Source: Flagellimonas sp. 389 (GTDB lineage Bacteria; Bacteroidota; Bacteroidia; Flavobacteriales; Flavobacteriaceae). Taken from it: a stretch of DNA of 64,000 bases. Below are positions 9,449-24,344 of this stretch, one piece after another; position 1 is the first letter of the stretch; each line of letters opens with the position of its first letter. The stretch lies in NCBI RefSeq assembly GCF_018449435.1, contig NZ_JAHCMU010000017.1:1-64000 (forward strand), written 5' to 3'. The position numbers and the translations under genes are program-made. The notes under the pieces are model-generated. The model saw nothing but the letters and a program-made list of their open reading frames with translations. It had not been told where the DNA came from and ran no database searches.

Positions 9449-10231
9449 TTAGAAATCCTTTTTCTTGGATTTAACAATGAGTCGCCAGATAGGCAGAACG
9501 GTCCAAAGTATCAGCATAAAAATGGAGATAAAAAACCCTTGCTGTGTTCCAAAAAACGTCTTAAAAACTGCTCCCGTGTATCCCAACAGTGCAGAAATGT
9601 CCAGTTTTAACAGTATTAAAATTCTTGATAGGTCAATTGGGTTTAACGTTGTGGCCACTATGGAGAACGTATCCAAAGGATATTCTTCAAAAACAATGAG
9701 CGACATCAAAAACAGTCCGTCGTAGATTACGGCCAAAAAAAGCCAAAGCAATACCGCATATCCAAATCCTTTAATTTTATTCTCGTTGGAAAGTCCCATG
9801 TTAAACGAAAGAGCGGTAAAAATAAAGGTCAAAAAGGCCCCTGTTACCAACAAGAGCGAAAAATCAAAAATTGCATCGCTTCTTAGCAGTCCGTACAAAA
9901 GGAAGGGAATACCCAGACCAAATACCAAACTTAGTGTCAACGAACCTGCCACTCCCAAATATTGACCTAAAAAAATCGAGGAACGCTTAATGGGTTGTGC
10001 CAATAGTAGTTCTGTAAATTCTTTGGAATTGTAGTAATACATAATTCCAAAAATTGTTCCTATAAGTGGCACCAATACTATAATGACGTTCATCAAGGTG
10101 ATTATGGCCTTGGAAACATCGTTGTTCAGGAATAACAGCACAAATCCCAGACCTAGATAAAACAGGAAGTACGCGTAACTCCAACGGCTACGGACAAGGT
10201 CGTAAAAGCTATATTTTAGAATCTTAAGCAT
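9449..10231 (-). CDS. nosY: NosY, ABC transporter permease for NosZ maturation
   Basis: The 260-residue membrane protein has about six helices and an NosY/ABC-2 type N-terminus (MLKILKYSFYDLVRSRWSYAY). Other features are VPLIGTIFGIMYYYNSKEFTELLLAQPIKRSS, the characteristic loop after helix 2, and a late IDLSRILILLKLD segment matching NosY proteins. With NosF and NosD it forms the inner-membrane ABC machine needed to assemble the copper-sulfide CuZ site of N2O reductase. It is the last gene of the nos operon and overlaps nosF by 8 nt. About 260 nt without a gene separate it from the Nudix regulator; no clear terminator is visible there. Confidence 0.88.
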   Translation of the reverse strand: MLKILKYSFYDLVRSRWSYAYFLFYLGLGFVLLFLNNDVSKAIITLMNVIIVLVPLIGTIFGIMYYYNSKEFTELLLAQPIKRSSIFLGQYLGVAGSLTLSLVFGLGIPFLLYGLLRSDAIFDFSLLLVTGAFLTFIFTALSFNMGLSNENKIKGFGYAVLLWLFLAVIYDGLFLMSLIVFEEYPLDTFSIVATTLNPIDLSRILILLKLDISALLGYTGAVFKTFFGTQQGFFISIFMLILWTVLPIWRLIVKSKKKDF

Positions 10232-10928
10232 TAGCGGTCGTTAGTGTGGCTATGGCACGTTCTACATCGGTTTGGTCAGTTTTTAGCTTTAGGTCATGTA
10301 TACTTCCTTTAAAGTAGATATTCCCCTCTAATAAATAGACAATTTCATCAGCTACTTCTTCTACAAATTGCATGATATGGGAAGTGACCAAAATAGTTTT
10401 TCCTTTCTCTTTTTCATTCTGAATCAGTTTCTTTAATCGTATGAGTGCAGCAGGGTCCAATCCGGTTGTTGGTTCATCTAGAATAATCAAGGGGCTATCG
10501 AACATGAAGGTCAATACGATGTTTACTTTTTGTTTGGTTCCGCCCGATAATGTTGACAACCGTTTATCCAAAAAAGGCTTAAGTCCAAAAAGGGAAATCA
10601 GGACTTCCTCTTCGCTTGGCCTTTCCCTAAGATCCTTTATCATTCGTATCAACTCTTTAACTTTAAGATTGCCTGGAAAATTGGCTATTTGCGGCAGGTA
10701 TTCTATTTCCCTTCGATATTTCCATTGATTTTTTATCGATACTCCTGAAATGGCAATAGTTCCCTTATTGGGAACCACCATTCCCAAAATACTCTTGATC
10801 AGCGTAGTTTTCCCCGATCCGTTTGGCCCTAAGATGGCTATGATACCGCCTGCACCGATTGAAAGATTAAGGTTTTTTAAAACCTCATTTTTACCGAATT
10901 TCTTGTATAAATTTTCAATCTGTATCAT
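10224..10928 (-). CDS. nosF: NosF, ABC transporter ATPase
   Basis: The 234-residue ATP-binding subunit has Walker A GPNGSGKTTLIKS (about residues 33-45), a Q-loop around YLPQIANFPG, the signature LSGGTKQKVN, Walker B LIILDEPTTGLDP and the switch His in VTSHIMQFVEE. It couples ATP hydrolysis to the NosY permease and periplasmic NosD during delivery of copper or sulfur to NosZ. It overlaps nosD by 4 nt (ATGA) and nosY by 8 nt, indicating translational coupling. Confidence 0.92.
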   Translation of the reverse strand: MIQIENLYKKFGKNEVLKNLNLSIGAGGIIAILGPNGSGKTTLIKSILGMVVPNKGTIAISGVSIKNQWKYRREIEYLPQIANFPGNLKVKELIRMIKDLRERPSEEEVLISLFGLKPFLDKRLSTLSGGTKQKVNIVLTFMFDSPLIILDEPTTGLDPAALIRLKKLIQNEKEKGKTILVTSHIMQFVEEVADEIVYLLEGNIYFKGSIHDLKLKTDQTDVERAIATLTTANA

Positions 10929-12163
10929 TGCGTCCTTTTCATTCGTGGGTTGGCATCCAAAAGTTTATCCGGTGTAAAAACGGGTGAAACCTTCTCAGAA
11001 AAATCGATAATATCCATAAATAGGCTGCGTAACAGCACAATAGTTTCTGGGGTACGGTTCACAATATAAGAGAATAGCTTCACGGGTCTATAAGGTACAT
11101 CCCCTATTCCATCCTTATCAAGATCATATCCCGTGTAATCACTCCAATAGTTTTTATCGAATACATTATCGTTCAATTTGCTGTTGTAGGAGATATCGAA
11201 GCTATTGTTCAAAAAATTGTTGTTTTTAAACTCATTGGCATAGCAAGCCCCCAGTACTTTAACGGCCCATCCGTTTTGAATAAAATCATTGTTGCTATAG
11301 GTAATTCTGTTGGAGCCTTCTATGTTAATCCCTACGGTATTCTCTTCAAAGATATTTCCCGATATTTCACCATCATTTATCTCCTTCAATAAAATTCCAT
11401 AAGCTGCAGTTCCCCAATTTTTTCGAAATGTATTGTCCAGCATCTTAATGTGTTTAGAGAACATGACCGCTACCCCCGCACCATTATTCTCGAAGATGTT
11501 ATTCGTATAAACATCATGGTTACTGAACATAAAATGGAGTCCATATCTAAGGTTGTTCGTGCTGCTATTATTATTGATGGTAACATTATCTGAAAATTCC
11601 AGATAAATACCATCCCGAGTACCTTGAACAATATTACGATCTACGGAAACATTGTGGGAATACCATAATTGAATGCCATTGCCAGAGTTGTATTCGTCCT
11701 TGGCATCGCCAATAATCTTATTATGGTAAACTTTTCCATTGTTGGATTTTTCCAAATAAATCCCAAAAAAAAGTTTCTCCAATACAAGGTTCTGGATTAC
11801 AAAATTTTCACTTTTTACAACACGTAAAGCGGCATAATCGGTTGTATAGCTCACCCCTACATTGATAAGAAAAAGTCCGTCTACCGTTACCCCATCCGAA
11901 GTAATTCTGATGATCTCCCCTTTTTTCTCCCCATCGATTACGGGATAGTTTTCACCTTTTAGCGTTAGCGGTTTATCAATAATAATATTGAACTCTTTGT
12001 AAGTACCTTTTTTAACCAACAACGTATCATAATCCGATGCTAATGCTATACCTTCTTTAATCGATTTTAGAGGACATGTTTGGCATACTTCAATGGTATT
12101 ACCACATACTTCTTGCACATGCAACACTACAAAAATAAGTAAGGTAAGGCCGTATTTTTTCAT
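10925..12163 (-). CDS. nosD: NosD, periplasmic beta-helix protein for NosZ copper-site assembly
   Basis: The 412-residue product has a Sec signal (MKKYGLTLLIFVVLHVQEVCG) and a long right-handed beta-helix of PbH1/CASH repeats. Many rungs have the form 'N-x-I-x-x-N' or 'N-N-x-F' (for example NNNSSTNNLRYGLHFMFSNH and IFEENTVGINIEGSN). The C-terminal block NYWSDYTGYDLDKDGIGDVPY is typical of NosD. It is the periplasmic partner of the NosFY ABC transporter, which in well-studied denitrifiers supplies sulfur and copper for the CuZ centre. Its start overlaps the cupin stop by 1 nt and its stop overlaps nosF by 4 nt. Confidence 0.93.
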   Translation of the reverse strand: MKKYGLTLLIFVVLHVQEVCGNTIEVCQTCPLKSIKEGIALASDYDTLLVKKGTYKEFNIIIDKPLTLKGENYPVIDGEKKGEIIRITSDGVTVDGLFLINVGVSYTTDYAALRVVKSENFVIQNLVLEKLFFGIYLEKSNNGKVYHNKIIGDAKDEYNSGNGIQLWYSHNVSVDRNIVQGTRDGIYLEFSDNVTINNNSSTNNLRYGLHFMFSNHDVYTNNIFENNGAGVAVMFSKHIKMLDNTFRKNWGTAAYGILLKEINDGEISGNIFEENTVGINIEGSNRITYSNNDFIQNGWAVKVLGACYANEFKNNNFLNNSFDISYNSKLNDNVFDKNYWSDYTGYDLDKDGIGDVPYRPVKLFSYIVNRTPETIVLLRSLFMDIIDFSEKVSPVFTPDKLLDANPRMKRTQ

Positions 12164-12462
12164 TATCGGATAATAAGGAATTTAGAGTCTTGGAAAGCCT
12201 CTACCCAATGCTCTGTTTGTTTAGGAAAACTGGTTTTTTGTTGGTTTTTAAGAACTACAGCGTCTTTCCCTATATAAAAAGCAATATGTCCCTCCAAAAC
12301 TATTAAATGGGCGTCTTTGGGCGATTCATGAGGAGGAAAAACTGCTCCCTTTGCTAAACTGATGCTCAAAATTTCAAGTGAATCATTTTTTACAAGTTGC
12401 TTTACTTGCAACCCTTCAAATGCTTGAATTGCTATGGTATTCTCGATTTCAATATTTTCCAT
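12163..12462 (-). CDS. Small cupin-like protein within the nos operon
   Basis: The product has about 99 residues; the start is taken at ATG 12462 (MENIEIENTIAIQAF), and an upstream ATG at 12474 would add four residues. It has no signal peptide. The pattern LAKGAVFPPHESPKDAHLIVLEGHIAFYIG followed by a late His (TEHWVEAF) is that of a single-domain cupin, with His residues at metal-binding positions. It lies between nosL and nosD with tight spacing, so it is co-expressed with N2O reductase. A cytoplasmic metal- or redox-sensing role is possible. I know of no assigned function for a cupin in nos maturation. Confidence 0.6.
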   Translation of the reverse strand: MENIEIENTIAIQAFEGLQVKQLVKNDSLEILSISLAKGAVFPPHESPKDAHLIVLEGHIAFYIGKDAVVLKNQQKTSFPKQTEHWVEAFQDSKFLIIR

Positions 12463-12485
12463 ACTTTCTGGCACTTTAGTATCTA

Positions 12486-12914
12486 TTATCTGAATTTCTC
12501 TTTAAGCTGCTCCCATGTGAATATTTCGCCTCCATGTTCATCAAGTCCATCTTGTGCGGCATCTTTGGTTGCAAAAGCAGTTAAATACTCGCCCATTGGA
12601 CTAGGTATTCCTTCAGAAATCAAAAAAGTGGCTTCGGTTACATCAATTAGTTTTCCCGGTGCATTGTAGTCGTTCGCCAACCCAATTTGAATGGTTTCTT
12701 GGTCGATATCCTTAAGATGGTTAAGCATGCATTCAGTAGCATCAAAATTGAATACCTTTCCTTTTTTGGTGACCATCTGTGCAGCATGTTGTTTGTCGAC
12801 AATTGTCATTTTACAATAATGACATCCAGCCTCACCATAGGCAATTGGTTTTGGACCAATAGAACATGATATACCAAGAATCAAGGATAAAAACAATATC
12901 TTCTTCATAAGCAC
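12486..12914 (-). CDS. nosL: NosL, copper-binding lipoprotein
   Basis: The 142-residue lipoprotein has the signal MLMKKILFLSLILGISC (lipobox Cys at 17). The mature part begins IGPKPIAYGEAGCHYCKMTI, carrying the C-x-x-C-x-M cluster that in NosL proteins binds Cu(I). The pattern YLTAFATKDAAQDGLDEHGGEIFTW, near the C-terminus, is also typical. NosL hands copper to NosD/NosZ in the periplasm. It sits 4 nt after the preceding membrane gene and 23 nt before the cupin gene. Confidence 0.93.
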   Translation of the reverse strand: MLMKKILFLSLILGISCSIGPKPIAYGEAGCHYCKMTIVDKQHAAQMVTKKGKVFNFDATECMLNHLKDIDQETIQIGLANDYNAPGKLIDVTEATFLISEGIPSPMGEYLTAFATKDAAQDGLDEHGGEIFTWEQLKEKFR

Positions 12915-12918
12915 GATG

Positions 12919-13548
12919 TTAAGTTGAATAGTAAAGATTGCTCGCTTTTTTATACTTCCAACCCAAATAACCGGCGATTAGGGTAAGGCACATACCAAGA
13001 AACATGAAATAAGCTCCAAGTCTTGGATAGGAATACGCATCAAAATTCAACATTTTTTGATGCCCCAATAATGGTGGTTTATAACTCATTGGAGTTCCGT
13101 CTGGGTTCACCAATTTCATTATCGCTTTTGGGTCTAGGTTTGTTCCATAATCCAACAACCAAGCATTAAAGTCGTACATGCCCAAAACACCTAGAATGGT
13201 CATCAAAATAAACCATCCAAAAAACCAATGATAGGATATTTTATCGAAGTACCCCAAAACTCCGAAAAGTACGCCTAAAGATACCATTCCGCCTATAACA
13301 AGTGGAAATACACTGAACTCCCACATATCTTCTGGCTTTGGCAACGTTTTCATGCCAATGTAGTGGTTGAGGCCATCTATGTTTTGAATATCAAATTCAC
13401 TTTGCCCTTGTAAGCCATTAATGTAAATATTGATTCCCAAAGGTTCTGGATATTGTGGTGCTCCCAGTTCTATGTTCCACAATGGGAACACGAAAAGTCC
13501 CATTAATAATGCAGAACCAACTATCATTACTAAACTAGCCTTTTTCAT
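12919..13548 (-). CDS. Conserved membrane protein of the nos operon, unknown function
   Basis: The 209-residue product has four predicted membrane helices: residues 5-25 (an uncleaved signal-like segment), about 82-102 (VFPLVIGGMVSLGVLFGVLG), about 108-128 (WFFGWFILMTILGVLGMYD) and about 178-198 (RLGAYFMFLGMCLTLIAGYLG). A periplasmic loop of about 55 residues follows helix 1 (PEPLGINIYINGLQG) and a second, with His and Met (LLGHQKMLNF), precedes the last helix. Similar genes are found after nosZ in Bacteroidetes nos clusters as far as I recall. A part in electron or copper delivery is plausible but unproven. It starts about 45 nt downstream of a terminator-like hairpin after nosZ. Confidence 0.6.
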   Translation of the reverse strand: MKKASLVMIVGSALLMGLFVFPLWNIELGAPQYPEPLGINIYINGLQGQSEFDIQNIDGLNHYIGMKTLPKPEDMWEFSVFPLVIGGMVSLGVLFGVLGYFDKISYHWFFGWFILMTILGVLGMYDFNAWLLDYGTNLDPKAIMKLVNPDGTPMSYKPPLLGHQKMLNFDAYSYPRLGAYFMFLGMCLTLIAGYLGWKYKKASNLYYST

Positions 13549-13649: not shown

Positions 13650-15611
13650 TTACTCTCCTAAAGACCAAGAAAGTTCAATGTCTGAATTTGCTGGAGATAC
13701 CCGTACGTATCCCTGCATTTCTTGGTGTAATGCAGAACAAAAATCTGTGCAGTAAAAAGGCCATACCCCTACTTTTTTGGGTTCCCAAATAGACGTTTTT
13801 GTCTGTCCTGGCATAACTAATAGTTCCGATGTATTCTGACCGATTATAGAGAAGCCATGTGGCACATCAAAATCCTGCTCATGATTGGTTATATGGAAAT
13901 AGACCTTATCCCCCACCTTAACTCCTTCTATGTTATCTGGTGTAAAGTGACTTCGGATAGTACTCATGTAAATGTGTACTTCCTTGCCATTTCTTTCTAC
14001 CCTAGCCTCTGAAGGATTACTAACGGCATATGGATGCTTGTTATCATCCAACCTGTAGATTTTCTTGGATTTTGGCGCCAATAATTCAGCTGGACATCCT
14101 GCTGCGTAATGTGGTTCACCGTGGGTCGGAAAATCGTAGATCAGCTCCATTTTTTCACCCGATATATCATAGATCTGTGCGGAGTGCTCCATTTCTGGTC
14201 CAGTGGGCAGATAACGGTCTTTTGTGATTTTGTTCATAGCCACTACGTATTTACCAAAAGGTTTACGGGAATTACCCCCGGGAATCATAAGATGACCTAC
14301 GGAATAGAAGGTTGGTTTACGGTCAATGACTTCCCAGGTACCCAGCTTCCATTTTACAACTTCGGATGAAATAAAGAACGTTGTGTATGCATTGCCTTTT
14401 TCATCAAATTCTGTGTGAAGTGGTCCTAGGCCACCACTTTTTACTGTTCCGGCCAAAACATCTTCAAACTTTAAAATAGGGATTCCGTAAGCTTCACCAT
14501 CAAACTTTTCATCCTCTATCGCTACAATCATTTTATCAAACGAATGTACCGTTAAGTCGGCGGAAAGCTTACCGTTGCCAATAATGTATTGTCCCGTGGG
14601 ATCAACATCGCAACCATGTGGAGATTTTGGAGTTGGCAAGAAAAATACAGCTCCCGGAACTTTTAAAGGATCTACGGTCAAAACCTCTTTCTTCATGGTA
14701 CTCGTTCCCATATGGGTACCTTCATCGTAAACGTTATGGGCATAGTCGGCAGGCATTTTGGTTCCACCACCATTGTTTACATATTCTTCAATCTTTTTCC
14801 AATTTACCGCAGCTATAAAATCTTTGTCATTTTGAGATGAATTCACCTCCATTAAAGAATTTGCTTCTTCGGTATTATAAGTAGTAAAGAAAAACCATCC
14901 ATGACTATCGCCACGACCGGGATGTGAAAGGTCATAGTTAAACCCGGGCATCAACAATTGAAACTTAATATCCATGTTACCGTGTTCCTGCTCTACACTG
15001 ATAAAGGTCAGTGCTCCCTTAAAATTGCCTTTGTATTCGTTGATGGGCATATCCTTTTGAGGGACCGGTACGGAAAAACGTGTCCCTGCGACCACATATT
15101 CCGTATTTTCGGTTATGAAAGAAGAACTGTGATTACCAGCACTGTTAGGTACTTCGATAATTTCCTCTGTTTCAAAAGTACTTAGGTTGATTCTTGCAAC
15201 GCGTGGCGTATTGTTCCCATTGATAAAAATCCATCTTCCATCCAATTCTCCATTAGTTTGCGAAATATCTGGGTGGTGCGCATCATCCCAAGGAACAAAT
15301 CCAAAAGACGTATTCAACATGGGTTTGGTTTCCTCGGAATACCCATAGCCTGATGTTGGAAATTGCGAGAAAACAGGAATCTCCTTGAACATTCTACCAG
15401 ATGGTAGTCCATACACGGTCAAGTTACCGCTATATCCGCCTGAAAGGAAAGCATAAAACTCATCTTGTTGTCCGGGCGCTACATATACTTTTTCTGCTGC
15501 GCTCGACCCCAAAGCTCCATTAGATGAAGATTTGTTGCTACCATTGCCGCAACTCGAGATAATCATGGCGACCCCTATCAAGGCCATCATATAATAGTGA
15601 TACTTTTTCAT
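13650..15611 (-). CDS. nosZ: Nitrous oxide reductase, clade II (Sec/lipoprotein type)
   Basis: NosZ reduces N2O to N2, the last step of denitrification. The 653-residue protein begins MKKYHYYMMALIGVAMIISSCGNG: a Sec-type, lipoprotein-like signal with no twin-arginine motif, which marks the clade II (atypical) enzyme. A seven-bladed propeller follows, with CuZ-type His residues in DAHHPD, HPGRGDSHGW, SPHGCDVDPTGQYI, GPLHTEFDEKG, MEHSAQIYD and FPTHGEPHYAAGCP. The C-terminal cupredoxin carries the CuA set CTDFCSALHQEM (C-x3-C-x3-H-x2-M, about residues 625-636). Upstream genes encode a cytochrome c and a fasciclin protein, and maturation genes follow. The Cys in the signal suggests it may be membrane anchored, facing the periplasm. 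Confidence 0.97.
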   Translation of the reverse strand: MKKYHYYMMALIGVAMIISSCGNGSNKSSSNGALGSSAAEKVYVAPGQQDEFYAFLSGGYSGNLTVYGLPSGRMFKEIPVFSQFPTSGYGYSEETKPMLNTSFGFVPWDDAHHPDISQTNGELDGRWIFINGNNTPRVARINLSTFETEEIIEVPNSAGNHSSSFITENTEYVVAGTRFSVPVPQKDMPINEYKGNFKGALTFISVEQEHGNMDIKFQLLMPGFNYDLSHPGRGDSHGWFFFTTYNTEEANSLMEVNSSQNDKDFIAAVNWKKIEEYVNNGGGTKMPADYAHNVYDEGTHMGTSTMKKEVLTVDPLKVPGAVFFLPTPKSPHGCDVDPTGQYIIGNGKLSADLTVHSFDKMIVAIEDEKFDGEAYGIPILKFEDVLAGTVKSGGLGPLHTEFDEKGNAYTTFFISSEVVKWKLGTWEVIDRKPTFYSVGHLMIPGGNSRKPFGKYVVAMNKITKDRYLPTGPEMEHSAQIYDISGEKMELIYDFPTHGEPHYAAGCPAELLAPKSKKIYRLDDNKHPYAVSNPSEARVERNGKEVHIYMSTIRSHFTPDNIEGVKVGDKVYFHITNHEQDFDVPHGFSIIGQNTSELLVMPGQTKTSIWEPKKVGVWPFYCTDFCSALHQEMQGYVRVSPANSDIELSWSLGE

Positions 15612-15640: not shown

Positions 15641-16195
15641 CTATTCCTCGGAAGGTGGTAGTATGACTTTGTCCACAACATGTACGATTCCATTGCCAGC
15701 AGGTACGCTTGCCAATATTTTTGCACCGCCAACATATACATCATCATCTTTCACCTCAACCGTAGTGTTTTGATCGTTGGCTTGCCCCAATTTTTTAAAC
15801 TTTTTCAGAAACTCCTTATCATACTTGCCAGGGGTAACATGATGCTTCAAGATATTGGCTAAAGCATCCTTATTTTCTGGCTTTAGCAGGTTTTCCACAG
15901 TTCCTTCGGGTAGTGCATCAAAAGCTTCGTTCGTAGGTGCAAATACCATCAATGGCCCTGCATTGACCAAAGCATTTTCCAAATCTGCAGCTTGTACCGC
16001 CGCAACCAAGGTTGTATGATCAGGTGAGTTTATGGCTATGCTCAATACCGTAGGGGTAGATTCATCATTTTGGATAAAGGCTTGTCCTTGCTCTTTGGAT
16101 ACTTCCACACCAATAGTTGATACCGGTTCGGTTTTAGTTTTAGTATTGCACGCCGTTACCATAAATAAAATCAGTAATGGTACAAATAGTTTCAT
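15641..16195 (-). CDS. Fasciclin-domain lipoprotein of the nos operon
   Basis: The start at ATG 16195 gives a compact lipoprotein signal (MKLFVPLLILFMVTAC); ATGs at 16216 and 16222 would add 7 or 9 polar residues. After a linker, one fasciclin (FAS1) domain spans about residues 40-184: DHTTLVAAVQAADLENAL, GPLMVFAPTNEAFDALPEGTVENLLKPENK, ILKHHVTPG and a final GNGIVHVVDKVILPP. FAS1 domains mediate adhesion or protein-protein contacts. Here the gene stands between the cytochrome c and nosZ, so a scaffolding or electron-transfer docking role near NosZ is possible but is inference. It lies 29 nt before nosZ. Confidence 0.85.
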   Translation of the reverse strand: MKLFVPLLILFMVTACNTKTKTEPVSTIGVEVSKEQGQAFIQNDESTPTVLSIAINSPDHTTLVAAVQAADLENALVNAGPLMVFAPTNEAFDALPEGTVENLLKPENKDALANILKHHVTPGKYDKEFLKKFKKLGQANDQNTTVEVKDDDVYVGGAKILASVPAGNGIVHVVDKVILPPSEE

Positions 16196-16228
16196 GGTTG
16201 ATTCTTTTGTTTTCATATACATTAGAGT

Positions 16229-16735
16229 TTAGAGGGTTCTGAAAAATTCCAGTAATGAACGTGTCTGCTCAACCGTTAGGTTTTGATTCGACATCGCAGC
16301 ACCATTAAATTCCACTAAAAGATCTTTGGCACAACGGTCTTCCTCGGTCATTAACTTTGGATCAAGAATCATGTTCATTACCCATTCTGGGCTTCTTCTG
16401 TCAAGAATCCCTTCCATTTTTGGCCCTATGAAACGTTTGTCGGTTTTATGGCAAGCGGTACAATTGGTTTTGAACAGTTCGGCCCCTTTCGTCACCATAG
16501 CATCATCAATCTCTGGATCTAGGGTAATTTCCTTTATTTGGCCTACTCCTTTATTATCCAATGTAATTCGTTGGGAAGCAGGTACTTCACTGGTTTTAGG
16601 AGTTGTTTCTTCAACTTTTTCGGTAGATTTGGTTCGATCTACACTGAACCCATCTTTCTTTTTCTCTTCTTTACCACCACAAGCAAAAAGGAAAAAGGCA
16701 CATAAAACTGAATAAATTGCAATATTTACTTTCAT
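16229..16735 (-). CDS. c-type cytochrome lipoprotein, probable electron donor to NosZ
   Basis: The 168-residue product has a lipoprotein signal (MKVNIAIYSVLCAFFLFAC) and a charged linker rich in Lys/Glu/Thr. A single class I cytochrome c domain follows from about residue 80: heme attachment NCTACHKTDKRFIGP (C-x2-CH) and a Met ligand in GAAMSNQNLT. It opens the nos operon and is anchored on the periplasmic face, where it likely carries electrons to the CuA site of NosZ. Its promoter (16760-16803) has a Crp/Fnr-like site. The electron-donor role follows from operon position and common nos clusters. Confidence 0.88.
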   Translation of the reverse strand: MKVNIAIYSVLCAFFLFACGGKEEKKKDGFSVDRTKSTEKVEETTPKTSEVPASQRITLDNKGVGQIKEITLDPEIDDAMVTKGAELFKTNCTACHKTDKRFIGPKMEGILDRRSPEWVMNMILDPKLMTEEDRCAKDLLVEFNGAAMSNQNLTVEQTRSLLEFFRTL

Positions 16736-16759: not shown

Positions 16760-16803
16760 CAAAAATAACCCCTCTTTAATGCTAAAAACATGATATATGT
16801 CAT
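16760..16803 (-). promoter_or_regulatory. nos operon promoter with Crp/Fnr-like activator site
   Basis: Read on the minus strand, TATTTTTG at 16767-16760 fits the Bacteroidetes -7 element TAnnTTTG. Upstream, ATGATATATGTCAT (16790-16803) has the TGA-N6-TCA core used by Crp/Fnr regulators. Its centre lies 36.5 nt from the downstream edge of the -7 box, which puts it near -42 from a start about 6 nt after that edge: the class II activator position. No TTG -33 element is present, in keeping with activator dependence. The same arrangement occurs at 20474-20517. Confidence 0.6.
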
Positions 16804-16831
16804 ATAGAAGATAAAAAAGTCTTTTAATCTT

Positions 16832-16839
16832 TATATTTG
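16832..16839 (+). promoter_or_regulatory. -7 promoter element for the Rrf2 regulator gene
   Basis: TATATTTG matches TAnnTTTG exactly and ends 16 nt before the ATG at 16856, giving a very short leader. The divergent nos promoter lies about 65 nt away, so the shared region could be bound by the Rrf2 protein itself as well as by the Crp/Fnr-like factor. Confidence 0.5.
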
Positions 16840-16855
16840 TTGAAAAATCTTGCTT

Positions 16856-17287
16856 ATGCTTTCCACTTCTACTAAATATGCCCTAAAAGCTGTACTTTAT
16901 CTTGCGGTTAATTCTTCTGAAAAGAAGAAGATTTTAGCAAAGGATATTAGTAATCCTACCAATATTCCAAAAGCATATTTATCAAAGCTATTGCAGGAAC
17001 TGTCACGACATCAAATTGTATCCTCCGTTAGAGGGCCAGGTGGCGGATTTTATATGACACCTGAAAACATTAAAGTTCCATTAATAGAAATCGTAAAGGT
17101 CATAGATGGTGATAGCCGACTTAATTCCTGTATGTTGAGCCTTAGTGAATGTAATGAGGAGCGACCATGCCCCATACATCATCTAGTTGGTAATGCGAAG
17201 ACAAATTTTGTTAAAAACCTTGAAGAGAATCGTTTAGAAGATTTGATTGAAAGTATACAAAGTGGCAAGTCTGTTTTACCACTTTAA
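16856..17287 (+). CDS. Rrf2-family Fe-S transcriptional regulator
   Basis: The 143-residue product starts MLSTSTKYALKAVLYLA at ATG 16856 (a TTG at 16850 is less likely), with an Rrf2 winged helix in the first 85 residues: PKAYLSKLLQELSRHQIVSSVRGPGGGFYM. The dimer helix is followed by three cysteines in NSCMLSLSECNEERPCPIHH (C-x6-C-x5-C), the cluster-binding pattern of IscR/NsrR-type proteins. In this family the cluster senses NO, oxygen or Fe-S status. The gene is divergent from the nos operon, so nitrosative or redox control of nos genes is the natural hypothesis. The specific signal cannot be read from the sequence. Confidence 0.85.
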   Translation: MLSTSTKYALKAVLYLAVNSSEKKKILAKDISNPTNIPKAYLSKLLQELSRHQIVSSVRGPGGGFYMTPENIKVPLIEIVKVIDGDSRLNSCMLSLSECNEERPCPIHHLVGNAKTNFVKNLEENRLEDLIESIQSGKSVLPL

Positions 17288-17691
17288 CAGCATGGTTTTT
17301 AATAGGTTTCCTTTAAAATTACAGGTTTGAAACATTTATGGTCTCATACTTCTAAAGAAAAGAGTAAATATAAAAACTAAATCTAAATTCATAACACTGC
17401 TCTTTATCTACCTGAATATTAATATGGCCTGTTGAAGACAAGATAAAAGAAAGTTCGAACGATACCAAAACTAATATATTGGGAGAGACTCAACATCAAT
17501 GTCCGACGAACTTTAAAAAGAGGAAAACATATACGACTAAAGAAGTATCCGCTATTTGCAAAATGATTTAGTTATCCTTTAAGAAACAAATAACAAGACC
17601 CATTCTATCACGCAGACGGCAATTACAATTGCGAAGGTGATAAATGCCTGTGCCCATTGTGCAGAGTAAGCAGCGTTATATTTTTAGAAAT
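17288..17691. other. About 400 nt without a supported gene
   Basis: No frame longer than a few dozen codons is convincing. Short stretches look like possible gene debris: one frame near 17485-17565 reads INVRRTLKRGKHIRLKKYP, and one near 17600-17690 reads ADGNYNCEGDKCLCPLC. Neither has a start, a family match I know, or a flanking repeat. It may be a decayed gene; I cannot identify it. Confidence 0.3.
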
Positions 17692-17727
17692 AAAAAACCT
17701 TCCAAATTAAGTTTTGGAAGGTTTTTT
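17692..17727. terminator. Terminator hairpin downstream of the TonB receptor gene
   Basis: AAAAAACCTTCCAAA (17692-17706) pairs perfectly with TTTGGAAGGTTTTTT (17713-17727). A-tract and T-tract on the two sides let it work in both directions. It lies about 20 nt after the receptor stop (minus strand). Confidence 0.8.
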
Positions 17728-17747
17728 ATTATTAAAGGCGAACTGCG

Positions 17748-20009
17748 CTAAAAAGTAAAATTAATCGATGCGAACGCATTTCTGCCCGGAGCCAAAATTG
17801 GAACATTGTTTCCTCGTACCGACCTGTTTAAATGCTCATAATAGTTTTCATCAAAAATATTGTTGACTCCTGCTGTTATTTTGGCCCCTTTTGTCAGTTG
17901 ATAAGCCACTTGAACGTTCAATAATGAAAAGGCCGGAGTTTCTGTCTCCCCAAACTCCTGCGATATTCGAGACTGCTGCATGACATGCCTAAATACCAAT
18001 TCGGGTTGAAGTTTACCATCTGCATAATTACCTATTAAGCTGTACCTTAAATCTAAAGGAGCTATTTCTGGTAGAGGTTCATTACGTTCCAAATCTTTTG
18101 CATAGGTATAGGCAATGCCCAATTGATGTTGTAGGCCCACCAACAATTCTTGGTTCCAACTCAATTCAAATCCTGTTTTATAGGCATCCTCTATATTGAC
18201 AAATTGCCGTACCCCAGGACTCATTGGCAATCTGGGAGATAGGTCATCATCAATAAAAGAAGAAATGAAGTCTTGTAAATACCCAGCAAATACATCAACG
18301 TTTATATTCGTATGATCGCTTTTCCATTGAAAAGTTACATCCAGTTGGTTGTTGATCTCTGGATCAAGTTGCGGATTGCCCAACAATTCAAAAGGATCTT
18401 GACCTACCGGGAAAAAGTTGATAAAACGTTCGGTAAGCCCTGCACTACGCTGTGCTCGCCCCAACCAAATGCCAAAGGTGACATTCTTGCCCGTATTAGT
18501 GGTTGCGCCCAAACTAAAACTCGGATTGAACTGTGAAACCCGGGTATCGCCATTGGCTTGTACAAACTCATCGGCAGCATCATTAATATCTGCTGTATTT
18601 AGCTCTAAACGAGTAGAAAAAACCAACAGGGTCTTATTTAGATTCAAGTGGTATTCACCAAACATACTACCCTTGGCAATGTAGCCATCTTGCCACGCAT
18701 TATCTTCGAACGTACGGCCCGCATTCGGTCCCATCAGAAATTCACGTATTCGTATGCCTTCTGCCCCTTCACGCCTAAAATCTGCACCGGCAAACAGGTT
18801 TGATTTCTCAAAGTTCCAGATACCTTCGGTTCTACCTCCAAAATTGTAAGTGGTAGCATTCGTTTGCGCATTTAACATCCTTGGATCTAAAGGTTTTAAA
18901 AGATTATCCATTAAATGGTCTACAAATGAACCGAATATGGTGGTATTCCACGAACTCAGGTTTTTTTTATCAAAAGTCATATCATGTCTGGCATTGAATA
19001 GCCAAGTATCATCATCTCTCAAATCCATCGGTAAAGCAGGAAAATCAGCATCTCTAGCGACATTGTAAATAACCGAAAATCTGATTTGGTTGCTATCGGT
19101 AATTCTAAAGCCCATATTGGTACCAAAACTTCCACGGTTAAAGTCAGCAGCTATGGTCTGACCATTTCCTGCTGTATAATCGTTGCCTTCAGACCAGGAA
19201 CCAAATAATGAGATATCATGGTTGTCGCCACTAAAACCTAGTTTTCCCTCATTTCTAAATACTGTTCCATTACCTTCATATCCGCTTGAAACCCTACCAT
19301 ATATCTCGTCTTGCTCTGTGAAGCGTAACTTCACGGGCATAAAATTAATGGTCGCCCCAAAACCTGTTCCAAAGCGAAGGGCATGGGGGCCCTTGAACAC
19401 CTCGATTCTATCTAACATGTTTGGAGCCATTTGGCTTGTAGGCGGATCCATACGATTTGGACAAGCTGCTGTCGCACCCTGTGCACCATCTAGTACAATG
19501 TTCAATTGGTCGTATTTAAACCCTCTAAATACGGGGTCAAAACCATAATTGCCCCCTTTTCTAATACTGTTTAACGCTGGGTTCTGGTTGAGTATGGCAG
19601 CACCGTCATGTGCCAGTTGTTCTTGATAGCCCATCTTCAATCTGTCATTAGGCTTTTCATTAGGCCTAAGTGCAATCACCGTTACCGGATACAAATTGAC
19701 CATGACACTTTGCCGGTAAAAAACTTTATCACGGAATAATGTCAAGACCTCTTCGTCATTTAAGGTCCATTTTCCATAATTGATGTGTGAAAAGATTATG
19801 GAATTCTCCTCATCATATGAAACTTGAAAGTTTCCATTTCCATCTGTTATTCCATTTTGAATTCCGTATTCAAAAGTTGCCCCTACAATTGGCAGGGTAT
19901 TATTCTTGTCCAATAATTTAATTGTGCTGGTCTCTTGGGCTACCATAGAAAGGAAGCCCATATAAATTAGGGCGACCAGCCACCCTTTATAATCGCGTGT
20001 AGATTTCAT
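17748..20009 (-). CDS. OprC/NosA-like TonB-dependent copper receptor
   Basis: The start is set at ATG 20009 (MKSTRDYKGWLVALIYMGFL, a signal peptide); a GTG 30 nt upstream is less likely. The 753-residue protein has a CarboxypepD_reg-like N-terminal domain (about 28-95), a plug (about 105-235, with PVFRGFKYDQLNIVLDG and RIEVFKGPHALRFGTG) and a 22-strand barrel ending in Phe (FASINFTF). Residues 183-187 read CPNRM, and HLM lies at 365-367, about 182 residues further on. OprC of Pseudomonas binds copper through a CxxxM and an HxM motif with almost the same spacing. It therefore most likely imports copper for NosZ. Its gene follows a small Cys-rich protein gene whose promoter resembles the nos promoter. 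Confidence 0.82.
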   Translation of the reverse strand: MKSTRDYKGWLVALIYMGFLSMVAQETSTIKLLDKNNTLPIVGATFEYGIQNGITDGNGNFQVSYDEENSIIFSHINYGKWTLNDEEVLTLFRDKVFYRQSVMVNLYPVTVIALRPNEKPNDRLKMGYQEQLAHDGAAILNQNPALNSIRKGGNYGFDPVFRGFKYDQLNIVLDGAQGATAACPNRMDPPTSQMAPNMLDRIEVFKGPHALRFGTGFGATINFMPVKLRFTEQDEIYGRVSSGYEGNGTVFRNEGKLGFSGDNHDISLFGSWSEGNDYTAGNGQTIAADFNRGSFGTNMGFRITDSNQIRFSVIYNVARDADFPALPMDLRDDDTWLFNARHDMTFDKKNLSSWNTTIFGSFVDHLMDNLLKPLDPRMLNAQTNATTYNFGGRTEGIWNFEKSNLFAGADFRREGAEGIRIREFLMGPNAGRTFEDNAWQDGYIAKGSMFGEYHLNLNKTLLVFSTRLELNTADINDAADEFVQANGDTRVSQFNPSFSLGATTNTGKNVTFGIWLGRAQRSAGLTERFINFFPVGQDPFELLGNPQLDPEINNQLDVTFQWKSDHTNINVDVFAGYLQDFISSFIDDDLSPRLPMSPGVRQFVNIEDAYKTGFELSWNQELLVGLQHQLGIAYTYAKDLERNEPLPEIAPLDLRYSLIGNYADGKLQPELVFRHVMQQSRISQEFGETETPAFSLLNVQVAYQLTKGAKITAGVNNIFDENYYEHLNRSVRGNNVPILAPGRNAFASINFTF

Positions 20010-20093
20010 AATCGTAATTTGATAGTTCAACTTTTGCACGCTCCATTGTTATCAGCAAAATCGATGGTGCTTGCAGCTATTTGATTCCTAGAT

Positions 20094-20468
20094 TCAGGCG
20101 GTTTGGGGAGGTTGAACTAGCTCAAAAACCAAAAGACGCCCATTGAGCGAATTATGGTATAAAAAAGAAGATTTTGTGATAAAGGTGTAATTGTCCATCC
20201 TTTTAAGAAGGCTGTCCACTTGGTCGAATGTAATTTGGGGGATTTCCATTTCTTGGGACGTTCCGAACGGATTTTCTTCATTCTGTTCGGTCTCCTTTGC
20301 TATCATTACGGCGAGATAACATTTACCATTACATTGAAGCTGGGGTTTATCTTTGTTTTCACAAAGAACATTTGAGATATAATCATAATTAAGTATATAT
20401 TCCGCAACTGGCCAAAGTGGCTTGACCAACATAAGAATAGCAACAAAACAGATTACCAAACTTTTCAT
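20094..20468 (-). CDS. Small Cys-containing membrane/secreted protein upstream of the copper receptor
   Basis: The 124-residue product has one N-terminal hydrophobic segment (MKSLVICFVAILMLVKPLWPV) and then YDYISNVLCENKDKPQLQCNGKCYLAVMI, with three Cys in a C-x10-C-x3-C pattern. Similar short proteins with the 'CENKDKP..CNGKCYL' motif occur beside metal-related TonB receptors in flavobacteria as far as I recall. A metal-binding role outside the inner membrane is plausible. It lies 84 nt before the receptor on the same strand and carries the Crp/Fnr-like promoter, so the two are probably one unit. Confidence 0.65.
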   Translation of the reverse strand: MKSLVICFVAILMLVKPLWPVAEYILNYDYISNVLCENKDKPQLQCNGKCYLAVMIAKETEQNEENPFGTSQEMEIPQITFDQVDSLLKRMDNYTFITKSSFLYHNSLNGRLLVFELVQPPQTA

Positions 20469-20473
20469 GCGAA

Positions 20474-20517
20474 CAAAAGTACATTACCTTTGAAGGTGGA
20501 AATATGATAAATGTCAA
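20474..20517 (-). promoter_or_regulatory. Promoter with the same Crp/Fnr-like site as the nos operon
   Basis: Read on the minus strand, TACTTTTG at 20481-20474 is a perfect TAnnTTTG -7 box, 6 nt before the ATG region of the 124-residue gene. Upstream, ATGATAAATGTCAA (20504-20517) has TGA-N6-TCA and shares 12 of 14 positions with the nos site. Its centre is again 36.5 nt from the downstream edge of the -7 box. The identical geometry argues for one activator controlling both units. Confidence 0.6.
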
Positions 20518-20663: not shown

Positions 20664-21527
20664 TTAAGACTTACTTTTGTCTTCTTCGACCAATTTGTCA
20701 TTCTTCCAGATACCTTGGGTGACCACTTGGTTATCAGCACCATAAAACACACCTTCGCCATTGCGTTTATCATCTTTCCATTGGCCTGTATATTTTTCTC
20801 CATTAGGCCAATAATAGGTGCCATATCCGGTGCGTTGGTCATTTATGTAATTCCCTGAGTAGTGTTCGCCATCTGCCCAGTAAAAGTTCCCTTCACCATG
20901 GCGTTGGTTATCCTTCCACTCTCCTTCATAGCGGCTCCCCGTATTCAACAAGGCTATACCATAACCATTGGCCTTATTATTTTTCACTTCGCCCACATAA
21001 TGGAACTGACTACCTTTTTTATTGGTGAACGTTATGTACTCACCAAAAGACTTTCGCTGTAGTTGCCGTTTTATACTCACCAGTTCTACTTTGGTTTTCT
21101 CCAAAACAAAGTTCAAGGAATCGTATTGTTTAATTTCTCTGGGGATACTGGAAATTCGAACATTTTGAATGGAATCCAAAGAATCTTTTTCTGTCAAGTC
21201 CAATTCAGAAAATTGTTGGCTCCTATTCAAGTTGGATAACTTTTTGGCAATATCGATACGCAGCTGTATTCCAGAAGCTTCTTCTACATCTTTATCCGAC
21301 AGTTGAGAAGTATACGCATTTATGGCTGAATCGTATTCACCTATTACGAGCAAAGAGTCGATTCGCAGTAACTCGTCATACTCGCTTACTTTTTTAAACA
21401 TGCCCGATGCCTTATCCTCAGAAGTTTTTAATTCCTTTTTTAAGCTGGTGATCTTAAAAAATCCGTAGGTAGCTATTAACACCATAACTACCAATAAAAT
21501 CATTCCAATATTTTTTGCCTTATTCAT
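20664..21527 (-). CDS. Membrane-anchored MORN-repeat protein
   Basis: The 287-residue product has one N-terminal helix (IGMILLVVMVLIATYGFFKI, residues 7-26) and a Lys/Glu/Ser-rich coiled-coil region (about 28-160). From about 170 to 275 it has four to five MORN repeats of the type YEGEWKDNQRHGEGNFYWADG / YTGQWKDDKRNGEGVFYGAD. MORN repeats form an elongated beta-sheet that in other proteins binds lipids or partner proteins. It is the third gene of an operon with the DUF2490 and 652-residue genes (34 nt gap). Function is unknown; the neighbours point to the cell envelope. Confidence 0.8.
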   Translation of the reverse strand: MNKAKNIGMILLVVMVLIATYGFFKITSLKKELKTSEDKASGMFKKVSEYDELLRIDSLLVIGEYDSAINAYTSQLSDKDVEEASGIQLRIDIAKKLSNLNRSQQFSELDLTEKDSLDSIQNVRISSIPREIKQYDSLNFVLEKTKVELVSIKRQLQRKSFGEYITFTNKKGSQFHYVGEVKNNKANGYGIALLNTGSRYEGEWKDNQRHGEGNFYWADGEHYSGNYINDQRTGYGTYYWPNGEKYTGQWKDDKRNGEGVFYGADNQVVTQGIWKNDKLVEEDKSKS

Positions 21528-21561: not shown

Positions 21562-22389
21562 TTAGTCATCTAAGTGAATAGCAGGAAGTTTGTTTTTGAC
21601 TTTTCTGATATCAGGTGAAAAATAAACATGGAAACGCATGGTCCAACCCTGTTTAAAAATACCTGCATTCTCAATGGTTTGTCCTTGTGAATACATTAAT
21701 CCGGCAGCCAATGTTAATCTTGGGGTCACAATATAGCCCAAAGTAGTGGTCAAACGTAAATCCTCCATAACACTACCAACTACTTCCTTACCGCTTTGCA
21801 TGATCAATTCTGCTTCCGGTGAAACGTAAAGTGTCCTTGGCACTAGTTTGTGATTGGTCAAAGGGACTTTTGCCCTGAACATGTAACGCCATCGATTCCT
21901 AAAAATATATTCGCTGTTTTCCTCAAAACCTTGGGTCCATCTATGCTCAATCCTGATCCTATGGTATATCATGGCACTGTACAGAGGTTGTGCAAATTGG
22001 TATTGATGCCAGATACGCCATTCGGGAACAACATTTCGTTCCGTAGAATCTTCATCAGTATTAAAATTTATGCGCACTACCCCTCCAAGACTAAAATTGA
22101 CCTTTTTTGAATAAATATATCCGATAGCATGTCGATTATATATTTGACCTATTTGACCAATGAACGGAGTATCTTCGGTTTCTTCAAAGCGAACATGGGT
22201 TTGGGCATCCCAAAACAAACGTTTTGATATACGGATATTGCCGTAAGAATTAAACCATACTCTGGTACCTGGGTCCTTAAACTTGGATTCTTCTGGAAGC
22301 ACTTCACCATCCTGAGCCACCATCGTGGATACAAAACACGACAAGCACAAAGCTGAAAACCAAACTATATTCTTACAATATACCTTCAT
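21562..22389 (-). CDS. DUF2490-family outer-membrane beta-barrel protein
   Basis: The 275-residue product has a signal peptide (to about residue 25, ending VAQ). The rest is alternating hydrophobic strands, with the DUF2490 pattern TRVWFNSYGNIRISKRLFWDAQTHVRFEE, then PEWRIWHQYQFAQPLYSAMIYHRIRIEHRW and FRNRWRYMFRAKVPL. The family is predicted to form small outer-membrane barrels; no substrate is known. Its ATG overlaps the stop of the 652-residue gene by 4 nt, so the two are translationally coupled. Confidence 0.75.
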   Translation of the reverse strand: MKVYCKNIVWFSALCLSCFVSTMVAQDGEVLPEESKFKDPGTRVWFNSYGNIRISKRLFWDAQTHVRFEETEDTPFIGQIGQIYNRHAIGYIYSKKVNFSLGGVVRINFNTDEDSTERNVVPEWRIWHQYQFAQPLYSAMIYHRIRIEHRWTQGFEENSEYIFRNRWRYMFRAKVPLTNHKLVPRTLYVSPEAELIMQSGKEVVGSVMEDLRLTTTLGYIVTPRLTLAAGLMYSQGQTIENAGIFKQGWTMRFHVYFSPDIRKVKNKLPAIHLDD

Positions 22390-24344
22390 TTCTCAGTTTT
22401 GCCAAGGGATTCTAAATTGAACAACTGTATAATTACCAATGGATCTTGTTCCCTTTTAAGTTTGCGTTCCAACCTTGAGGTATCCTCATCTCGCATTTCC
22501 AACATACGCCGGTGCGTATTGTTCAACAATCCGACCAGTTCTTCAACATTGTCACAGTTAAGTTCTGTTTCTACCCTATCCAATATGTGCGGGATCAATA
22601 CTCTTTGGTATGCAGAGGTAATTCGCTTTTTCACCTCTTCATTCATTATGTTTGCCATAAACGGGTTCCAAATGGCATCTTGATACTTTTCCTCAATAAC
22701 TTGCATCCTACCAGGTTGCTGTGCCAGTGCTTTGGTCAGCATATCCATAGACTCAAAACAGCGTACTAAATGACGACCAAGCTCCATTTTTTCTTTGGTC
22801 TCCTCCATTTTTGAATATCGGGTGAGGTTTTGGTCGGCGGTGGATTTAACTTTTTCAAACGACTTCATGTACTTCAACGGCAATTTATCCGACAAAGAAT
22901 CTAAATCATTGTTCAATTGATTTACTTGCGCTATTATCCTCTCTTCCAGTGCAATAAACTCTTGTTGCCGTTTATCTTTGGTCAGTTTATCGTTTAAAAC
23001 CTGCTGAATGGAATCTAGACTCAACGTGGCATAGTGTGCCATTTTATAGATTGACGCTATGTTATTTTGGGTAAAATCGAAGTCCGGCGCTCTTGGCCCT
23101 TTGAAGACCTTGTTCTCATTTTCTTGACCGCCAACAATTATTTCGGTGGAAGGTTTTCCATTTGGCCATACATGTTCAATCAATTCGTCAATTGGAACGT
23201 ATTGAAGAATATTCGATTCATGAAAACCCAAAATATTTTCTAGGGGATCAACAAAGTTTTCAGAAATGGCGACAACAACGGAATGTAGGAATTGGGCATC
23301 TTCATCGGCCATTTTCAAAATGGTCAATTGTGTGTTGTTCAATAATGACCCACTTATCAATTTGGACTTCTGGTACAATGTTTTTACGGAATCCATTTGT
23401 TTGGATTCTAAAGAATCTATTGGGTAATAAGGAACTTTGACCTTAAACTCCGGATAGAAAGCTGATTCACCTAATTCAGATAAAACACCATCTATCTTGC
23501 CATAATAAGCCGCGTTTACCGCAAGTGATTTATTGATAGCACTTTGTGACAAATTAAAAGTGTCTTGAGATTGCTGTACGACATCAAGAATCTTTAGATA
23601 GTTATCATCCAAGGTGATGATTTTTTCGTCAAGAACCCTGCTTTGGTAAAGGTTGATTACTTTGTTTTCACCATCTGTATTTAATTCAATCTTCTCTAAA
23701 CGACCATCTTTAAAGTACCAGCGTTCCACCACGCCGATGTCATCTTCGGAATAAAGTGTCCACTCGTCATGTGCCAATCCGTTGCGCAAAAATCTACCCA
23801 CCAGTGTTGTACCTTCACTTTCAATACGGAAGCTTTTTTGGGGCACTCCGTTGTTAAATTCAATGGCACTCTTGAACAGTACTTCATCCACCTCAGAGTC
23901 TTTGATGCGATTTTTGGTTATGGTCCATGTTCCATCAGGTTTTCCATTGTTCAAAATACCTTCCGCTTCTTCTTGCGTTCCTGTAATGTTCAAAATATAT
24001 TGATAATCCAATACCTGCGTAATACTATCTGACTGGAATTCGCCGAACTGAAATTTCCAATATCCGTTAGGGTAATTATCTTTAAACACCCCTTTGAACA
24101 AGAAAGAATAGTCACTTTTTGCCAATAAAGCGCCGAGGTTCGAACGTTGCAATTGAAACGGGCCGTCCAATACCGTATCGTTTTCCACCATTTTGTATTG
24201 AAAGTCCGCCATGCCTTTATACTTTCCAACTTTAAGGCTGTCCTTGTAGGAGATGACCTGACAGTGGGCAATCATGGAGAAAGAAGTAAATACTAGGATA
24301 GCTATCCTCCTGACCAGTAAGTTCTTTATTGGATTATTCGACAT
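22386..24344 (-). CDS. Large secreted protein with MORN-variant repeats and coiled coils, unknown function
   Basis: The 652-residue product starts with a signal peptide (RIAILVFTSFSMIAHCQ). Residues about 30-230 contain repeats of the antitoxin-like MORN variant (GVFKDNYPNGYWKFQFGEF, GILNNGKPDGTWTITKNR, GRFLRNGLAHDEWTLYSED). Residues about 240-652 are mostly helical and charged, with long coiled-coil stretches (for example IALEERIIAQVNQLNNDLDS). No enzyme motif is visible. It is the first gene of the operon with DUF2490 and the MORN membrane protein. I read the set as an envelope-spanning assembly: periplasmic coiled coil, outer-membrane barrel, inner-membrane MORN protein. The 286 nt upstream, up to 24630, contain no gene I can see. 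Confidence 0.65.
   Translation of the reverse strand: MSNNPIKNLLVRRIAILVFTSFSMIAHCQVISYKDSLKVGKYKGMADFQYKMVENDTVLDGPFQLQRSNLGALLAKSDYSFLFKGVFKDNYPNGYWKFQFGEFQSDSITQVLDYQYILNITGTQEEAEGILNNGKPDGTWTITKNRIKDSEVDEVLFKSAIEFNNGVPQKSFRIESEGTTLVGRFLRNGLAHDEWTLYSEDDIGVVERWYFKDGRLEKIELNTDGENKVINLYQSRVLDEKIITLDDNYLKILDVVQQSQDTFNLSQSAINKSLAVNAAYYGKIDGVLSELGESAFYPEFKVKVPYYPIDSLESKQMDSVKTLYQKSKLISGSLLNNTQLTILKMADEDAQFLHSVVVAISENFVDPLENILGFHESNILQYVPIDELIEHVWPNGKPSTEIIVGGQENENKVFKGPRAPDFDFTQNNIASIYKMAHYATLSLDSIQQVLNDKLTKDKRQQEFIALEERIIAQVNQLNNDLDSLSDKLPLKYMKSFEKVKSTADQNLTRYSKMEETKEKMELGRHLVRCFESMDMLTKALAQQPGRMQVIEEKYQDAIWNPFMANIMNEEVKKRITSAYQRVLIPHILDRVETELNCDNVEELVGLLNNTHRRMLEMRDEDTSRLERKLKREQDPLVIIQLFNLESLGKTEK

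Follow-up and report, generated by a model that had tools for sequence, protein, structure and literature searches.

A shared Fnr-type promoter geometry at the nitrous oxide reductase genes and an OprC-like receptor unit of Flagellimonas

We analysed a 64,000-nucleotide (nt) stretch of Flagellimonas sp. 389, family Flavobacteriaceae (contig NZ_JAHCMU010000017.1, positions 1 to 64,000), which we call the window. Its minus strand carries the nos unit, encoding nitrous oxide (N2O) reductase (NosZ), and a second unit encoding a small Cys protein, named cys124 here, and an OprC-like TonB-dependent receptor. The promoters of both units hold an Fnr-type palindrome at one fixed distance from a TAnnTTTG -7 box. 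We consider it likely that an Fnr-type protein activates both units at low oxygen from the class II position, within a wider regulon, with the imported copper feeding NosZ and the cbb3 oxidase. A drop in oxygen probably turns on copper supply and N2O respiration jointly. The sites, their geometry and spacing preference, their conservation, the copper ligands of the receptor and the content of the regulon are read from the DNA and its translations.

Promoter geometry in the window and the genome

The nos promoter contains the palindrome ATGACATATATCAT (16790..16803, minus strand) and the -7 box TATTTTTG (16760..16767, minus), and the receptor promoter contains the palindrome TTGACATTTATCAT (20504..20517, minus) and the -7 box TACTTTTG (20474..20481, minus). 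Both palindromes have a TGA-N6-TCA core. In each promoter the gap from the TCA of the core to the TA of the box is 23 nt, 22 nt lie between the edge of the 14-bp palindrome and the box, and the palindrome centre is 36.5 nt from the downstream edge of the box. A first-pass annotation of this DNA had proposed these sites, boxes and the 36.5-nt geometry, and all of them are present on the minus strand at the positions given above. By convention, -41.5 is the position of a class II activator. In Flavobacterium psychrophilum, mapped start sites put the TAnnTTTG box between -12 and -5 (PMC9723704), and because the palindrome centres lie 36.5 nt from the box edge, both are predicted to be at -41.5. 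The predicted start of the nos unit (16755) is 20 nt ahead of the ATG of its first gene, a cytochrome gene, and that of the receptor unit (20469) is 1 nt ahead of the cys124 ATG (20468).

The core motif alone was rejected as evidence, since it occurs at chance frequency in the window (22 occurrences vs 22.64 expected). When the core is followed by N23 and TAnnTTTG, the 4.16-Mb genome has 12 matches and a reversed-pattern control has 0. With the gap left free from 8 to 38, there are 59 genome matches (29 in the control), of which 12 fall at gap 23 and 47 at the other 30 gaps together (mean 1.57 per gap; Poisson P ~1e-7). The motif is thus less common at random promoter distances than at gap 23; equal frequency is what the first-pass annotation had named as counting against its proposal. 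One of the 47 matches at other gaps belongs to the divergent Rrf2 gene, whose box TATATTTG (16832..16839, plus strand) uses the nos palindrome at gap 29. A relaxed form, TGAY..RTCA with TTTR, gives 16 genome matches vs 0 in the control, and the 13-nt motif ATGATANATGTCA has three exact genome copies, two of them the window sites, with one control match.

The genes that follow gap-23 sites in this genome include those for the S30AE ribosome-hibernation protein (hpf), universal stress proteins (usp), HemN, TonB_C and OmpW. A further target is a Crp/Fnr gene that adjoins genes for a copper-type ATPase, fused CcoNO, CcoP and CcoG; one site lies 228 nt ahead of ccoNO (C1:155422; C numbers denote contigs), and a PPDK-like gene also has a site, as do several doubtful or unrelated genes. 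Some matches are uncertain or probably due to chance, namely C12:279615 (odd core, epimerase-like gene), C46:141180 (no nearby gene start) and those on C21, C23 and C45 (genes with no obvious low-oxygen link). Because HemN, Usp, S30AE, OmpW, TonB_C, cbb3-side and crp/fnr targets are typical of general low-oxygen regulons, the sites of this genome read as such a regulon, wider than nos and copper. In F. psychrophilum, the cbb3 oxidase and heme enzymes are raised at low oxygen, according to PMC9723704. A genome search had been expected to return denitrification and copper genes; it did return nos and the OprC-like receptor, together with hemN, usp, hpf, ompW, tonB, cbb3-side and crp/fnr genes, and a regulon dedicated to nos and copper was rejected for this reason.

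Conservation of the site and of the receptor units

Our family set comprises 120 genomes, each from a different genus of the window's family, and nosZ is present in 56. The 55 nosZ upstream regions comprise 54 that were fetched and the window; one genome with no upstream DNA (G058) was left out. On the coding strand of these regions, all 54 matches to the strict pattern are at gap 23, and the other 30 gaps of the 8-38 range have none. On the opposite strand there are 19 matches, spread over nine gaps, some of which arise because divergent boxes use the same palindrome. In 47/55 regions, a strict site stands in the proper place ahead of the nos genes, which bears out the first-pass expectation that the motif is kept upstream of orthologous nos genes. 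The other eight consist of two regions too short to hold the promoter (G037, G066), four with TAnnTTTA at gap 23, one with a weak site (G022) and one with none (G077). Mean pairwise identity at nos is 0.79 for the 14-bp site and 0.28 for the last 16 nt of the spacer, with shuffled sequence at 0.26; the length of the spacer was thus kept while its sequence diverged to chance, which points to protein contact. Across the phylum, NosZ was found in 74/198 genomes. Among 26 new nosZ loci taken from the best matches and examined over 1.5 kb upstream, a strict site is present at 3/4 of those inside the window's family.

The receptor of the window (17748..20012, minus strand; 754 residues) has the copper-ligand motifs CPNRM and HLM. 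Because its TIGR01778 score of 236.7 bits is under the curated cut-off of 472.45, we label it only OprC-like. A PDB search with this receptor puts six OprC chains on top (4.7e-38) and a heme receptor seventh (1.1e-11). Its ACPNRMD and DHLMDN segments align to Cys143/Met147 and His323/Met325 of OprC, so that all four ligands are kept (CxxxM, HxM). Receptors of this kind, which we call type A, have C[PG].RM in 38/38 loci and H.MD by pattern in 21/38, the remainder being unaligned.

Five close relatives (L135-L139; one Flavobacteriaceae bacterium GF1 and four Croceivirga sp.) have the receptor unit directly before the Rrf2, cytochrome, fasciclin and nosZ genes, and in all five both the nos and the receptor sites are at gap 23. 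The receptor promoter is also present in Robiginitalea marina (L141). Among the 18 type-A receptors of the family set, five have Fnr-type sites, eight a GTGA..TCAC variant, one a mixed site and four no strict site; the gap is 23 in 11, 22 in two and 24 in one. Thus, the first-pass proposal that the motif is kept at receptor orthologues holds for both units of the close relatives (5/5) and is uneven beyond them (Fnr-type in 5/18, GTGA..TCAC in 8/18, none in 4/18). The eight GTGA..TCAC loci are L121-L123, L127, L129-L131 and L134; all eight genomes hold the receiver-domain Crp protein described below, but so do others.

A second family of OprC-like receptors, type B, came from the nos upstream regions, four of which hold part of another TonB receptor, with the plug motif ACTDKMD visible in three. 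A PDB search with a type-B representative returns OprC only. This family is present in 28/120 genomes, 22 of them with nosZ, and AC...MD and H.MDD occur in 28/28 of its members. In 10/22 of the genomes with nosZ, the type-B receptor is within 10 kb of it. Sites precede 19/28 type-B operons, with TTTG or TTTA boxes; 16 of these sites are at gap 23, two at gap 22 and one at gap 24. They are present in 17/22 genomes with nosZ and in 2/6 without (G071 and G093, both at gap 23). Over gaps 8-38, the 19 type-B regions with DNA upstream of cys124 have 14 matches, nine of them at gap 23. Genomes with either receptor have nosZ in 34/45 cases vs 22/75 of those without (Fisher 1.4e-6), a comparison in which ancestry is not controlled.

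The first gene of the receptor unit, cys124 (20094..20468, minus strand), encodes a 124-residue protein with an N-terminal helix and LCENKDKPQLQCNGKC. Residues C36, C46, G48, C50, P120 and P121 are invariant in an alignment of 54 sequences. A homologue lies directly ahead of 46/46 receptors of types A and B, a count that is partly built in because the alignment was seeded from receptor loci by motif search; at type-B operons with a site, it is the next gene in 18/19 and close by in the nineteenth (L240). A profile search listed 96 matches in 72/120 genomes, 48 of them immediately upstream of a type-A or type-B receptor. Of the other 48, 20 were inspected: some head MbnP/MbnH-like operons (domains confirmed at L319), and others lie ahead of genes for further TonB receptors or for a protein of beta-barrel type. 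Among these 20 loci, family names were tested for the proteins of five. A GHAPISVM-type beta-barrel protein is encoded in some of the operons that start with a cys124 homologue (loci L319-L338), and this genome has one such operon (G000:C45:79558). Searches of Pfam, NCBIfam and PDB gave cys124 no family, the 54 proteins looked up returning single stray matches or none. In its predicted structure (mean predicted local distance difference test score, pLDDT, 61.7), the N-terminal helix alone is fair.

The start codon lies 4-5 nt past the -7 box, which places it at +1 or +2, in 10/14 type-A promoters with a site, in 6/7 promoters with a site at the named receptor loci and in 15/19 type-B promoters. 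A crp/fnr gene of this genome (G000:C1:157902-157950) likewise has its start codon 4-5 nt past the -7 box. The cys124 mRNAs of many genera and a crp/fnr mRNA are therefore predicted to be leaderless, a class that makes up 5.5% of start-mapped mRNAs in F. psychrophilum (PMC9723704). The predicted start of the window's nos promoter is not leaderless. We tentatively suggest, at somewhat less than an even chance, that cys124 is an unrecognised copper-acquisition partner in Bacteroidota: it would be a membrane-anchored periplasmic acceptor to which OprC-like receptors of two families pass their copper, also heading MbnP/MbnH-like operons, and its expression from leaderless mRNAs under the low-oxygen regulator would time copper uptake to the onset of N2O and cbb3 respiration.

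All genes of the nos unit are on the minus strand. The c-type cytochrome gene (16229..16735, PF00034) is followed by those for a fasciclin-domain protein (15641..16222, PF02469) and the Sec-dependent (clade II) NosZ (13650..15611; TIGR04246, 935.4 bits, above the cut-off of 625). Next are genes for a membrane protein with no family match (12919..13548), a protein with no NCBIfam match that we take to be NosL-like (12486..12914), a cupin-domain protein (12163..12474, PF07883) and NosD (10925..12163; TIGR04247, 443.2 bits, cut-off 300). The last two encode an ABC ATPase (10224..10928, PF00005) and a membrane protein with no NCBIfam match (9449..10231), presumably NosF and NosY by position. The Rrf2-family gene (16850..17287, plus strand, PF02082) is divergent from nos. 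The strict nos site of other genera can have a divergent box at gap 24 (five regions) or gap 23 (two regions). The DNA upstream of the receptor unit encodes a protein with GExYxWPNG-type repeats, MORN-like as judged by eye (20664-21527), and a second large protein (22386-24344).

The regulator and competing explanations

Four Crp/Fnr proteins (PF13545) are encoded in this genome. One of them, a 229-residue CxxC protein (G000:C1:158704-159393), adjoins cbb3 genes. Aligned to an FNR-type regulator of the PDB, it has both the Glu and the Arg that mark the recognition helix, whereas none of the other three has both residues at those positions (by eye). We take the aligned positions to be Glu209 and Arg213, presumed DNA contacts, and the four [4Fe-4S] ligands Cys20, Cys23, Cys29 and Cys122 of FNR (E. 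coli numbering); the equivalents of Cys20, Cys23 and Cys122 are present, and another conserved Cys (VYC) exists. Orthologues with at least 40% identity occur in 71/120 genomes. Among 30 orthologue loci, CxxC gives 30 pattern matches, most keep V[FY]C and the CFIP-type cysteine, and the recognition helix is found by pattern in 25/30. A Crp protein of ~350 residues with a receiver domain, absent from this genome and present in 53/120, has a closely similar recognition helix (TE[ST].IR). Its loci (L186-L200, L205-L234) lie ~21 kb or less from nosZ in at least 10 genomes. In the 56 nosZ genomes, 17 have only the 229-residue orthologue, 19 have both proteins, 19 only the receiver-domain protein and one neither (either, 55/56), and strict sites are present in all four classes. 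Two sensors with a common type of DNA-reading head may each be able to read the site, and from these alignments the 229-residue protein is the likeliest regulator here.

We envisage the following mechanism. An Fnr-type activator would bind TGAYNNNNRTCA centred at -41.5 of TAnnTTTG promoters and act by class II activation. At low oxygen it would turn on the nos unit and the cys124-receptor unit, plus the hemN, cbb3-side, tonB, usp, hpf and ompW genes. With TonB as the power source, ionic copper would cross the outer membrane through the receptor and then serve apo-NosZ and the cbb3 oxidase. In this scheme we infer the identity of the regulator, oxygen as its signal, activation rather than repression, copper as the substrate and its delivery to NosZ. 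Of the regulon proposed in the first pass, the class II Crp/Fnr-type architecture common to nos and the OprC-like receptor stands (5/5 close relatives; 19/28 type-B operons), and its restriction to nos and copper does not.

Several observations weigh against this mechanism. Two genomes, G022 and G077, have nosZ and no good site, and outside the window's family only 2/22 nosZ regions examined over 1.5 kb upstream have one. At the receptors, a strict site is present in only 7/20 named loci, the GTGA..TCAC variant of 8/18 type-A receptors is found in 0/47 nos sites, four more lack a strict site, and 9/28 type-B operons have none. At L140, the nos genes are on the other side, with a strict site at nos and none at the receptor. 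The equivalent of Cys29 in the 229-residue protein is Asn. For Crp/Fnr homologues of a Flavobacteriales genome, which were not compared with the 229-residue protein, carbon sensing has been predicted (PMC8510549). NosZ activity did not change on knockout of nosA in one Pseudomonas stutzeri strain, and non-denitrifiers also have OprC (both PMC8610252). Finally, nosZ is absent from 5/18 type-A receptor genomes, and for this reason the copper may also serve the cbb3 oxidase.

The last point leads to the most substantial alternative, which falls somewhat short of an even chance, namely that the receptor is in the low-oxygen regulon mainly to feed the cbb3 oxidase, itself a copper enzyme, and that nos is co-regulated merely as a low-oxygen function. 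Copper-type ATPase and cbb3 genes adjoin the regulator and regulon sites, and of the five type-A genomes without nosZ, G011, G049 and G057 have a gap-23 site and G113 a gap-22 site; a gap-23 site is also found at the two type-B receptors of nosZ-free genomes noted above (2/6; G071, G093). However, the co-occurrence of receptors with nosZ (34/45 vs 22/75) and the nearness of type-B receptors to nosZ (10 kb or less in 10/22 nosZ genomes) argue for a tie to N2O reduction. A cargo other than ionic copper, such as heme, a siderophore or chelated copper, seems quite unlikely: the TIGR01778 score is under its cut-off and hemin-receptor models match too, but all four OprC ligands are kept (CxxxM, HxM) and OprC is by far the best PDB match.

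The signal and the binding protein could also differ from those of the Fnr-type mechanism. An activator that senses nitric oxide, like Dnr or NnrR, would agree with the DNR motif CTTGATnnnnATCAAG ahead of nosZ in Proteobacteria and with the predicted NnrR control of nosA in Brucella (both PMC1274295). We think this improbable, though slightly less so than another cargo, since orthologues of the candidate keep CxxC (30 matches in 30 loci) and mostly V[FY]C and the CFIP-type cysteine, and since hemN and cbb3-side genes are among the targets. Alternatively, the product of the divergent Rrf2 gene might bind the palindrome and repress. An Rrf2 homologue is beside nos in 30/55 regions, but some regions with a nos site gave no Rrf2 homologue (e.g., G078, G054 and G013), the site precedes many unrelated genes, and the fixed -41.5 geometry suits an activator; repression by Rrf2 is accordingly very unlikely.

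Relation to known systems

A literature search, judged mostly without full texts, found no account of this promoter or receptor unit in Bacteroidota, nor of nos control together with copper acquisition in clade II Bacteroidota N2O reducers. NosZ is the known biological sink for N2O and has a high copper demand. A recurrent fixed geometry, a named candidate regulator and a receptor/small-protein unit make the link between nos and copper directly testable, and the geometry provides a simple pattern for spotting candidate low-oxygen genes in related genomes.

FNR class II promoters share with those described here a TGA..TCA palindrome at -41.5, the start being predicted in our case. The FNR consensus has the outer bases TTGAT/ATCAA, whereas here they are ATGAY/RTCAT, the -7 box is TAnnTTTG and the candidate regulator has no Cys29 equivalent. 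MbnP/MbnH copper operons resemble the receptor unit in that cys124 homologues head operons of that type too, but in the 20 loci inspected no OprC-type receptor was seen and the first 900 nt contained no gap-23 site. What is already known is the tie of NosA (P. stutzeri) and OprC (P. aeruginosa) to N2O reductase, these being OprC-type TonB receptors with CxxxM-HxM that are expressed anaerobically (PMC8610252). The receptor described here differs from them: it is distant in sequence, receptors of types A and B have cys124 ahead (46/46) and mostly a predicted leaderless start, the promoter has a TAnnTTTG box, and the phylum is another. Also known, as a prediction in PMC1274295, is the Brucella NnrR regulon with nosA, in which a Crp/Fnr-family protein likewise controls denitrification genes and an outer-membrane copper receptor. 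That regulon has another regulator and another site, whereas the sites described here are part of a wider, low-oxygen-type regulon and recur across many genera.

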